Origin: Myxococcales bacterium
GTDB lineage: Bacteria > Myxococcota > B64-G9
NCBI GenBank assembly: GCA_012798435.1
Contig: JAAZNF010000014.1
Location: 1 to 50,500, forward strand
DNA length: 50,500 bases
Direction: 5' to 3'
Both the position numbers and the translations under genes were made by a program. Below the pieces are notes generated by a model. It was given only the letters and a program-made list of their open reading frames with translations. It had not been told where the DNA came from and did not search any database. This document shows positions 41,256 through 44,876 of this stretch, one piece after another. The stretch's first letter is position 1. The number at the start of each line of letters is the position of its first letter.

Positions 41256-44200
41256 TCAGGGCTCCTTGCGCAACGGCTTCTCGCCGGGGCGCATGAAGCG
41301 CGGCAGGATGGTGCAGGCGCGCGGGATGGCCATCCAGTCGCCGGACTTGAGCGAGGCCGGGCTGCAGGCCGGCGGCGCCTTCTCGCCCTCGGCCACCGGC
41401 AACACCAGCAGCTTCGCGTCCGGGCGGGCGTGGCGCGCCTGGATCAAGGCCAGGCCCACCTGGCGCTCGCCGGTGGAGGCGGCGCTGGTCACCACGCCGG
41501 TGTACTCGCCCTTGCGGCCCTCCAGCACCGGCATGCCCGGCCGCAACACCTTGCCGCCCTTCTCATCCACCTCGAACCGCACCACCACCCGCTCGCGCTT
41601 CTTGTGCGCCTCCAGCATGGCCGCGCGCCCCACGAAGAACGGCTTGTGCAGCTTGACGAAGGAGCCGTAGCCCGCCTCCAGCGGGTTGATGCGGTGCGGC
41701 CCGGCCAGCTCGTGGCCGTGTAGCGGGTAGCCCGCCTCGGTGCGGGTGGAGTCGCGGGCCCCCAGCCCCACCGGCACGATGCCGTCCGCCGCGCCCGCGT
41801 CCAGGACGGCGTTCCACAGGGTGCGCGCCGCCTCCGGGTGGACGAAGAGCTCGTACCCCACCTCCTCGCCGGTGTAGCCGGTGCGGGCGATGATGGTGTC
41901 GATGCCCGCCACCCGGCCCTGGATGAGACAGAACTTGCGCAGCCGCTCGAGCTCCAGGCGGAAACGCGCGTCGTCGATCAGGCGGTTCAGCACGTCCCGG
42001 GTTCGCGGGCCCTGGAGGGCGAGGTCCACCCGGCAGTCGGCGCCGCAGGCGGGATCCTTGAGGTTGCGAAGCTCGACCGGCAGCTCGAAGCGCACCTCCG
42101 GCCGCGCCGGGTCGAGCAGCGTCTTCCCTTGTAGCACCGCGCGCAGCCAGGCCTCGTCCTCGTCGGCGTTGGCGGCGTTGACCACCACCAGGAAGCGTTC
42201 CGGGGCGCGGCGGTACACGATGATGTCGTCGATGCAGCGCCCGTCGCTACCGAAGAGGTACGAGTATTGGGCCTGCCCCGGGGCCAGCATGGGTACGTAG
42301 TTGGCCGTCACCACGTCGAGGAAGCGCTCGGCGTGCGGCCCGCTCACCTCCAGGCACCCCATGTGGCTGACGTCGAACAACCCGCCCCGCTGCCGCACCG
42401 CCGCGTGCTCCTCCAAAATGCCGGTGTACATGACCGGCATCTTCCAGCCAGCGAAGGGCACCAGGTGCTTTGGGCTGGTGCGCTTCTCGTGCTCGGAGTA
42501 GAGGCAGGTCTTTTTGAGCTCGGCGGCAGGTGCCTTCCAGGTGAAGGCCGCCGCCCCGCCCGCGGCCGGCGGTCGCTCGCGGCGCAGGGCCCGCTGCCCG
42601 ATGAAGAAGGGCTTCTCCATGGCGATGGCCTGCTTCCATACCCCGTCCAGGCGCCGCGCTAACGTGTCGCCGGCGGCGAGCGGGTCCGGCAGGGCCTCGG
42701 CGCCGACCAGGATCGCGCCGGCCTCGAGCAACCGCTCGGCCAGGGCCTCCAGACGCGCCGTCTCGGCCAGCAGGAAGGCGCCACCACCGAGCGCTGCCGG
42801 CCGGCCAAACGCCAGGCCGAAGTCGGTGCGCTCAACCACGCCGGGTCCGGGCAGCGCCCGCCCCAGCGCCTTCTGGCCCACCTCGCCGAACCTCCCGCCG
42901 CGCAGCCCGAGGAGCGCGCGCGCCGGCCGGCCGTCCGAGGGCGACTCGATGTCCTCGATCACCACCGGGCCCTCGGCCTTGAGCCACAGATCGTCGTCCT
43001 GAAGGAAATACCCGTCGGACAGCCCCCGCAGCCAGCGCTGCAATCGGCCGGGATCGCCAGTGTGGAGAATGAGGAGGTAGCGGTTTTCGGGATTGGGCGC
43101 GGGCTCGCGGACCACAAGCCCGTGGCCCAGCACTTGGCCGTGAGCGTCGGCGACGATGGTCATGTCCACCCGGCCGGGCACCAGCGCCAGCGCCCGCGAG
43201 GTGCAAGCGGTCTCGAGAAAGTGCGCCGCGCGCGGCCCGCTCACCTCGAGGGTGAGCGCATACAGCGGCGGATAGACGGCGCAGCCGCGCTCGACGGCCT
43301 GCTTCTCCTCTTCGAGCTTCCCGCGCGAGAGCGGTGTGACGAAGCCGTTCTTCTCGGCGGTGCGCACGGCGTGTTTTGCCAAGAACGGCTGGAGCGCCCC
43401 GCGGCGCGCGGCGGGCGGCGGCGGCGGCGCGTAATGAGGATAGGCGTCCTGCGCGGCCGGCGCGGGATCGCTCCCGACCTGGCGCAGCAGCTCCTCCACT
43501 TCGCGGGCGGTGCGCTCGACCACCGCCGGATCGATCTTGCCGCGGCCCCACTCCAGGCGGGCGCCCATGTACGAGAAAGGCTGGATGGCGCGCAGCACCC
43601 CGGCGATGAGCGACGCCAGCCGGCGCATGTGGGCGGGTGTGAAGCCCCGCTGGGTGACCCAGGTGGCGCCGAAACGCAACCCCGAGGGGTGCACCGCGTT
43701 GGTGTCGCCGGCGATGGTGTTCTTGTTGCAGACGATGCCGCACAGGTCCAGGATGCGCGAGGCGATCTCGCCGGTCACCGGCAGTCCGGTGGGCGTCTTC
43801 AGCCGGCGCAGGTCCAGCAGGCACATGTGGGTGTTGGTCCCGCCGTAGGCCAGGGTGAGCCCCTCGGCCTGGAACCCCTCGGCCAGGGCCCGGGCGTTCT
43901 CCAGCACCCGGCGCTGCAGGGCGCGGAACTCATCGCTCCTCGCGATGGCCATGGCCACCGCCTTGGCGGCGATGGCGTGGACGTGGGGCCCGCCCTGCTC
44001 GCCCGGGAACACCCCGAAGTCGAGCTTGGCGGCGATGTGCGGGTCGGTGCACAGCAGCATGGCCCCGCGCGGGCCGCACAGGGTCTTGTGGGTGGTGAAG
44101 CTCACCACGTGCGCCACGCCCACCGGGTTGTTGAGCAGCCCCGCCGCCACCATGCCGGCCAGGTGCGCGATGTCGGCGAGCAGGACGGCGCCCACCCGGT

Positions 44201-44876
44201 CGGCGATCTCCCGCATGCGCTTCCAGTCGATGTCCCAGGGGAAGGCCGAGAAGCCGCCGATGAGGAGCTTGGGCCGGTGTTCCAGGGCCAGCTTCTCGAT
44301 GACGTCGTAGTCCAGGCGGCCGCCGGGCGAGAGCTCGTAGGGGACGATGCGGAAGTTCGCCCCGGAGCGGTTCACCGGCGCGCCGTGGGTGAGGTGCCCG
44401 CCGTGGGTCAGCGAGGCCCCCATCACCACGTCGCCCGGCCGGGCGAAGGCGTTGTACACGGCGTTGTTGGCCGCGGCCCCCGAGAGCGGCTGGACGTTGG
44501 CGAAGATCTCGTCGGCCGAGGCGTTTTCGTTGGCGAACACCTCGGCGGCCCGGCGGCGGCACACCGCCTCCAGCATGTCCACGTACTCGCAGCCCTTGTA
44601 GTAGCGGCGGTTGCCGTAGCGCCGGAACCAGGCCAGCTGGTGGCCAAACGACGAAAGCCGATCGAGCGGCTCGGTGAGCGTCCGGGGCGAGGGGTAGCCC
44701 TCGGCGTACAGGTTGCCGAACTCGCACGAGAGCGCCTCGCGCACCGCCGGTGGGCAGATGCTCTCGGAGGCGATCAGGATGAGTTTTCGCTTCTGCCGCT
44801 CGGCCTCACGCTCCACGATGCCGGCGACGATGGGGTCGATGGCGGCCAGCGGACGTTGGTCGACGAGCTGGGTCAT
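41256..44876 (-). CDS. SHMT-GcvT-GcvT triple-domain fusion
   Basis: 1206 residues with no internal stop. Residues 1-468: serine hydroxymethyltransferase, with IASESICPPAVREALSCEFGNLYAEGYP, PLP Lys K264 (FTTHKTLCGPRGAML) and an insertion of about 28 residues between YAEGYP and RRYYKGCEYVD. Pro-rich linker 483-489. Residues about 494-765: a GcvT-like domain that has lost catalytic features (HGQVLGHGLVV in place of GxxIDDxIV, DTLARRLDG in place of DSLRLEAG). Residues about 785-1206: canonical aminomethyltransferase with CIDDIIVY (the catalytic Asp pair), RTGYTGEEVGYEL and GLGARDSTRTEAGYPLHGHEL. GGAG lies 6 bases before the ATG. SHMT and GcvT both make methylene-tetrahydrofolate, the ThyX substrate. 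Confidence 0.92.
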   Translation of the reverse strand: MTQLVDQRPLAAIDPIVAGIVEREAERQKRKLILIASESICPPAVREALSCEFGNLYAEGYPSPRTLTEPLDRLSSFGHQLAWFRRYGNRRYYKGCEYVDMLEAVCRRRAAEVFANENASADEIFANVQPLSGAAANNAVYNAFARPGDVVMGASLTHGGHLTHGAPVNRSGANFRIVPYELSPGGRLDYDVIEKLALEHRPKLLIGGFSAFPWDIDWKRMREIADRVGAVLLADIAHLAGMVAAGLLNNPVGVAHVVSFTTHKTLCGPRGAMLLCTDPHIAAKLDFGVFPGEQGGPHVHAIAAKAVAMAIARSDEFRALQRRVLENARALAEGFQAEGLTLAYGGTNTHMCLLDLRRLKTPTGLPVTGEIASRILDLCGIVCNKNTIAGDTNAVHPSGLRFGATWVTQRGFTPAHMRRLASLIAGVLRAIQPFSYMGARLEWGRGKIDPAVVERTAREVEELLRQVGSDPAPAAQDAYPHYAPPPPPAARRGALQPFLAKHAVRTAEKNGFVTPLSRGKLEEEKQAVERGCAVYPPLYALTLEVSGPRAAHFLETACTSRALALVPGRVDMTIVADAHGQVLGHGLVVREPAPNPENRYLLILHTGDPGRLQRWLRGLSDGYFLQDDDLWLKAEGPVVIEDIESPSDGRPARALLGLRGGRFGEVGQKALGRALPGPGVVERTDFGLAFGRPAALGGGAFLLAETARLEALAERLLEAGAILVGAEALPDPLAAGDTLARRLDGVWKQAIAMEKPFFIGQRALRRERPPAAGGAAAFTWKAPAAELKKTCLYSEHEKRTSPKHLVPFAGWKMPVMYTGILEEHAAVRQRGGLFDVSHMGCLEVSGPHAERFLDVVTANYVPMLAPGQAQYSYLFGSDGRCIDDIIVYRRAPERFLVVVNAANADEDEAWLRAVLQGKTLLDPARPEVRFELPVELRNLKDPACGADCRVDLALQGPRTRDVLNRLIDDARFRLELERLRKFCLIQGRVAGIDTIIARTGYTGEEVGYELFVHPEAARTLWNAVLDAGAADGIVPVGLGARDSTRTEAGYPLHGHELAGPHRINPLEAGYGSFVKLHKPFFVGRAAMLEAHKKRERVVVRFEVDEKGGKVLRPGMPVLEGRKGEYTGVVTSAASTGERQVGLALIQARHARPDAKLLVLPVAEGEKAPPACSPASLKSGDWMAIPRACTILPRFMRPGEKPLRKEP

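Follow-up and report, generated by a model that had tools for sequence, protein, structure and literature searches.

A serine hydroxymethyltransferase fused to an eroded and a complete GcvT domain in bacteria of several phyla

Does a single gene join serine hydroxymethyltransferase (SHMT) to two GcvT domains, and what would such a chain do? The question is raised by a locus in the window, the whole 50,500-nucleotide stretch of a Myxococcales genome (G000) analysed here. The coupling of glycine cleavage and SHMT through their shared methylene-tetrahydrofolate (methylene-THF) has been studied for decades, for example in pea mitochondria (Rebeille et al. 1994, as cited in PMC11366715). Free methylene-THF from glycine cleavage gives rise to formaldehyde in vitro (PMC7227101).

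The features of the locus are collected in Table 1. Read on the plus strand, positions 41256-44876 contain internal stops, and the gene was assigned to the minus strand. Long open reading frames mean little in GC-rich sequence, so that homology is the evidence for the fusion. The chain scored 394.8 bits against the Pfam family SHMT (PF00464; cut-off 27) and a summed 270 bits in two stretches against GCV_T (PF01571; cut-off 25.6); GCV_T_C remained slightly under its cut-off. The NCBIfam models for SHMT (NF000586; 423 bits, cut-off 335) and gcvT (TIGR00528; 276 bits, cut-off 236, and NF001567; 306 bits, cut-off 300) were all exceeded. Together with full-length relatives (~1200 aa, 58-62% identity) in each of the eight other genomes of the class, these domains confirm an SHMT, a degenerate GcvT and a canonical GcvT on one chain, as the preliminary description had read it. 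Models of defence systems gave no matches.

Table 1. Features of the fusion locus (window coordinates)
Feature	Position	Strand	Remarks and basis
SHMT / eroded GcvT / GcvT fusion, 1206 aa	41256..44876	-	ATG at 44876 (aaaaaaGGAGcatccATG), stop codon 41256-41258 included; Pfam, NCBIfam, relatives
SHMT domain, residues 1-440	43557..44876	-	Pfam, residue alignment
27-residue insert, residues 63-89, between YAEGYP and RRYY, beside active site	44610..44690	-	alignment
Middle domain, residues 479-778; fold of GcvT, lacking the C-terminal barrel and the catalytic Asp	42543..43442	-	Pfam, AlphaFold/Foldseek, alignment
Conserved motif of middle domain, residues 615-642 (WLRGLSDGYFLQDDDLWLKAEGPVVIED)	42951..43034	-	alignment
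Complete GcvT (T-protein) domain, residues 786-1206	41259..42521	-	Pfam, NCBIfam, alignment
Asp pair D883-D884 of active GcvT	42225..42230	-	alignment
Likely ribosome-binding site GGAG upstream of fusion	44882..44885	-	read from sequence
thyX, 481 aa, two Thy1 stretches; next gene after fusion	39803..41248	-	

The SHMT part has the fold of ordinary SHMT (GlyA, PF00464/NF000586), with a TM-score of about 0.92 over the known enzyme in the best structural matches, and shares its PLP lysine and all catalytic residues that we checked. Y57, E59, Y93, H161, H164, D235, H238, the PLP lysine K264 and R401 were invariant in 36 of 36 relatives; Y51/E53/Y61/D197/H200/K226/R357 of Bacillus stearothermophilus SHMT (bsSHMT) correspond to Y57/E59/Y93/D235/H238/K264/R401 of the fusion. 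At the position of bsSHMT Y60, the 36 aligned relatives have Y or F. Ordinary SHMT has neither the insert that extends the YAEGYP-RRYY loop of the fusion nor the ~750 residues derived from GcvT that follow its SHMT domain. The insert, previously given as 28 residues after YAEGYP, exists, but the alignment sets its length at 27. It stands where other SHMTs have one Gly, between the catalytic E53 and Y60/Y61 (bsSHMT), and is common to all fused SHMTs aligned; R85 and R86 are invariant and Q80, L81 and Y87 at least 90% conserved. We also considered the insert as a mark of the long SHMT class PRK13580 (NF010094), and rejected this at 324 bits vs a cut-off of 735. The fluorothreonine transaldolase likewise contains an SHMT-like domain within a larger chain; its partner domain and reaction differ, and the fusion reached 89 bits against its model (cut-off 650).

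In six of the nine class genomes, the fusion was the only SHMT match in a protein search. This and the retained catalytic residues support SHMT function. A second SHMT outside the fusion was found in G000, G003 and G007, so that these genomes do not strictly depend on the fusion for SHMT activity. The unfused second SHMT of G000 (contig C104, L027:3670-4923) has an odd loop, YSEGYAGKRYYEGQQNID, in place of the usual YAEGYPGRRYYGGCEYVD.

In the C-terminal GcvT domain (PF01571/TIGR00528), Asp97 (Escherichia coli numbering) is retained, as are the other residues of the pocket that we checked. D884 aligns with this Asp, which is N in the D97N mutant chain 3a8k, and was invariant in 36 of 36 relatives; Y1001, E1009 and R1041 were invariant in the 35 relatives where they are present. 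The T-protein set of catalytic and pocket residues (Tm D96, Y188, E195 and R227) is thus complete in this domain, the pocket roles of the residues other than the catalytic Asp being presumed by us after the T-protein literature. With the SHMT residues and D884 both conserved in 36 of 36, the two outer enzymes retain their catalytic residues, in line with the preliminary description of them as the active parts.

Ordinary GcvT is encoded by its own gene, whereas here it closes a chain that begins with SHMT and continues with another, eroded GcvT domain. GcvT fused to another enzyme has precedents in dimethylglycine oxidase/dehydrogenase, sarcosine oxidase alpha and TMAO demethylase, in which the partner is an oxidase or demethylase and not SHMT; the NCBIfam models of these proteins scored far under their cut-offs on the fusion. 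In dimethylglycine oxidase, the one-carbon product reaches the folate site without leaving the protein.

How widespread is the fusion? All nine genomes of the class carry it, close relatives included. An SHMT-domain profile with a strict cut-off (1e-130) identified 16 carriers among 384 genomes, namely the class, G165, G166 and G167 from the same phylum, and four genomes outside the phylum. The same three phylum members, which belong to two other families, were obtained with a middle-domain profile from 195 genomes of the phylum. In 15 of the 16 carriers there is a long fused frame; that of G228 leaves its contig within the GcvT part. Searches within the home phyla of two of the four outside genomes showed the fusion in 70 of 100 members of a second phylum and in 12 of 17 members of a third; open frames were mostly of 1,000-1,330 aa, and many of the shorter ones lay near contig ends. 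The domain search thus extends the fusion across the class, the wider phylum and two other phyla. Many of the genomes searched are drafts, and gene absences are therefore soft. A named public record with 59% identity to the fusion comes from a Deltaproteobacteria MAG.

In a tree computed without the insert columns, a fully supported branch separated the fused SHMTs from a small sample of unfused ones (six rows, four distinct sequences). The middle domains formed one group (support 100) and so did the active GcvT domains (support 89). The simplest reading of these trees would be a single origin of the architecture. Gene clusters of the type glyA-gcvT-gcvH place the same two enzymes side by side, where they are likely co-expressed, but as separate genes; no record spans 80% of the fusion, so they are without the middle domain. 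Such separate glyA-gcvT(-gcvH) neighbours occur on plasmids, for example in Paenarthrobacter and Rhodococcus, and are a plausible source of the fusion. Among open-licence papers we found none describing an SHMT-GcvT fusion, and it is absent from the searched sections of papers on Acetothermia/Bipolaricaulota metabolism. The fusion, which combines two well-known enzymes and a third, repurposed domain, is real, recurrent and apparently undescribed. One consequence is for annotation: 'gcvT', and sometimes 'glyA', seem missing or mislabelled in carriers although one gene holds them.

The genomic setting bears on the function of the GcvT part. In G000, gcvH-gcvPA-gcvPB lie on contig C38 with no separate gcvT, and the only two PF01571 matches are both inside the fusion; gcvH and gcvP, whose presence the preliminary description had left to be checked, are thus both there. 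PF01571 matches were confined to the fusion in eight of the nine class genomes, the exception being G007 with an extra GcvT-like protein of ~354 aa beside fatty-acid- or polyketide-synthesis-like genes. The same applied to 34 of the 35 other carriers, the exception being G228 (fusion cut by a contig end), which has a further match on another contig. Of 44 carriers of the fusion, 43 have gcvP, and G165, a genome of 94% completeness, gave no gcvP match. The gene order fusion-gcvH-gcvPA-gcvPB-lplA in G221 puts the fusion in the place of gcvT, G368 has fusion-gcvH, and in G386 and G398 gcvH and gcvPA are close by. Glycine riboswitches in G386, G397 and G384 precede an aminotransferase-like gene (a label read from the gene sequence, without a family search) whose end lies 5-30 bases before the start of the fusion. 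No riboswitch was found at the window's own fusion gene, and no gcv neighbour at the loci examined in the second phylum. The status as sole GcvT, the co-occurrence with GcvP, the position in gcv operons and the glycine riboswitches together make it very likely that the fusion has T-protein function.

Other neighbours are metF with panB/panE (G002), purH (G165 and G228), panB (G228) and folD with CODH/ACS genes (G003). Nearly all neighbours make or use one-carbon units; what unites the loci is one-carbon supply together with glycine, not thymidylate. In G003 the CODH/ACS genes and folD adjoin the fusion on the opposite strand (L030:1-6616), which may point to a connection with the Wood-Ljungdahl pathway in this genome. 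The window itself has a methylenetetrahydrofolate reductase (MTHFR) domain at 34880-36646 on the plus strand, within the C-terminal half of a lengthy ORF whose true start is probably further in; MTHFR is near the fusion in G002, too. On contig C100 of G000 (L036:2795-4429), a 544-aa protein with a response-regulator-receiver-like start and a GcvH-like stretch (38.5 bits) sits next to heterodisulfide-reductase-like genes.

We then have to account for the middle domain. Its AlphaFold model (nine sequences, pLDDT 79) was closest in Foldseek to Bacillus subtilis GcvT (1yx2; E 6.7e-17, TMq 0.63), with the C-terminal barrel absent. YgfZ/Iba57-like structures matched worse than GcvT, and this assignment was rejected. 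The length across carriers ranges from 168 to 324 aa, which indicates graded erosion. At one end, G386, G384, G221 and G397, all of one phylum, have 322-324 aa and 138-172 bits against GCV_T; G386, G221 and G397 keep IDD and G384 reads IDE, and the catalytic Asp is kept in five of seven aligned members of this phylum (G221, G386, G397, G368 and G398). The window's class has 295-305 aa and no catalytic Asp. At the other end, the second phylum has mostly 168-208 aa and ~20-48 bits, with up to half of the fold gone. The middle domain is an ancestral GcvT folate domain that has eroded to differing degrees. Loss of the Asp pair, as described earlier, therefore holds for the window and its class but not for some relatives.

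Within the class, the window's middle domain changes fastest: its mean identity to the other middle domains is 36%, against 48% among those others; the SHMT domains in the same comparison gave 74% for both. A DGY...D.D...K.EGP motif is nevertheless nearly invariant across phyla. Eight positions in residues 617-642 are at least 90% conserved (D621, G622, Y623, D627, D629, K633, G636 and P637), compared with 4 of 138 in the preceding and 0 of 110 in the following stretch. This clustering argues that the domain is not merely decaying but that one face is held. The term 'degenerate' fits a GcvT fold without its catalytic Asp, but undersells a motif of such conservation. The middle domain is probably a docking spacer.

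An AlphaFold model of residues 7-1200 (35 sequences) had a pTM of 0.81 and a mean pLDDT of 84, and suggests that the domains are packed in a defined arrangement; it is of one monomer and comes without inter-domain error values. SHMTs work as dimers or tetramers. Confidence in the modelled insert was low, which is no surprise for a segment close to a dimer interface, since a monomer has no such interface.

Taken together, we consider it probable that the fusion is a two-enzyme protein in which GcvT is the cell's sole T-protein, SHMT shares its methylene-THF, THF is exchanged locally and the middle domain serves as docking spacer. For this best reading, domain order, intact catalytic residues, the status as sole GcvT, gcvP in the carriers and the operon and riboswitch setting are results of the computation; we infer SHMT and T-protein activities, a direct hand-over of methylene-THF and the role of the middle domain. 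Once GcvP has decarboxylated glycine, the C-terminal GcvT would take the aminomethyl group from H-protein and yield 5,10-methylene-THF and ammonia. The N-terminal SHMT would consume or produce the same methylene-THF (glycine + methylene-THF <-> serine + THF). One chain could thus make one serine, CO2 and ammonia from two glycines, or run in reverse, with THF shuttling locally between the sites. By means of its DGY...EGP motif, and perhaps with the help of the SHMT insert, the middle domain would keep the two active sites fixed relative to each other. As a natural fusion that at least two phyla of small-genome bacteria commonly have and that also occurs in a third, the protein allows coupling and direct hand-over to be tested on a single chain. 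Engineered reductive-glycine pathways, in which T-protein and SHMT act in series, could use it as a candidate part.

The two enzymes might instead work independently, the link merely keeping their amounts equal with no transfer between sites. Each outer domain looks complete alone, fusions of pathway-neighbour genes are common and glyA-gcvT neighbours exist. However, all fused SHMTs share an insert by the active site, the middle-domain motif is nearly invariant while the remainder erodes, and the high pTM of the model suggests a fixed arrangement, not loose beads. We regard such a fusion of convenience as rather unlikely. The DGY...EGP motif and the SHMT insert may form a fusion-specific docking surface or folate path by which methylene-THF passes from T-protein to SHMT unmixed with the cell pool. 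We put this forward only tentatively; if true, glycine cleavage and serine synthesis would be joined by a natural folate channel.

Could the middle domain still bind folate or H-protein and so regulate the chain, as a storage site or second H-protein dock? Its GcvT fold would allow this, as would the IDD of G221, G386, G397, G368 and G398 and the high GCV_T scores of the four genomes mentioned above. However, the window's domain lacks both the catalytic Asp and the motifs of the usual folate contacts, TGYTGE and GARD, and the second phylum has dispensed with up to half of the fold. Folate docking, which had been suggested for this domain, is thus not to be expected via the usual contacts, and we hold retained binding of either ligand to be unlikely.

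The preliminary description had further proposed that methylene-THF is channelled into dTMP by ThyX, next in the operon. The thyX gene is indeed the next gene, on the same strand and 7 bases downstream of the stop codon of the fusion, and SHMT is a usual methylene-THF source for thymidylate synthases. However, thyX directly follows the fusion on the same strand only in G000, G002, G004 and G005. These four genomes group together in the SHMT tree as one sublineage of the class, and the pairing may have arisen once. The remaining class genomes and all other lineages examined have no thyX neighbour, and in other lineages it is gcv genes and glycine riboswitches that accompany the fusion. That the fusion mainly supplies ThyX for dTMP synthesis is therefore quite improbable, and we favour the two-enzyme T-protein/SHMT reading. 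The window's ThyX is of double length: residue 104 has an RHR..S..E.S.R motif, whereas at 355 only the RHR of this motif recurs; its relatives in G002, G004 and G005 have 482-494 aa. In G004, Acido-Lenti-1 RNA matches lie on both strands between fusion and thyX (L031:4783-4854).

An assembly or frame artefact joining glyA and gcvT can be dismissed, since nothing speaks for it but the rarity of the architecture and a draft genome in 129 contigs, whereas the relatives already refute it, with the same kind of chain in dozens of independent genomes, including the single-contig genomes G294 and G402, and third-position GC is uniform across the frame. We found no frame break near residues 490 or 780, with third-position GC at 0.88-1.00 throughout, and eight more class genomes encode the chain, which rules out a split frame at these points. 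In the draft genome G385, the SHMT part (C5:3-878) contains one in-frame TGA and ends at the contig end; this TGA could be a sequencing error, the mark of a decayed copy or a recoded codon.
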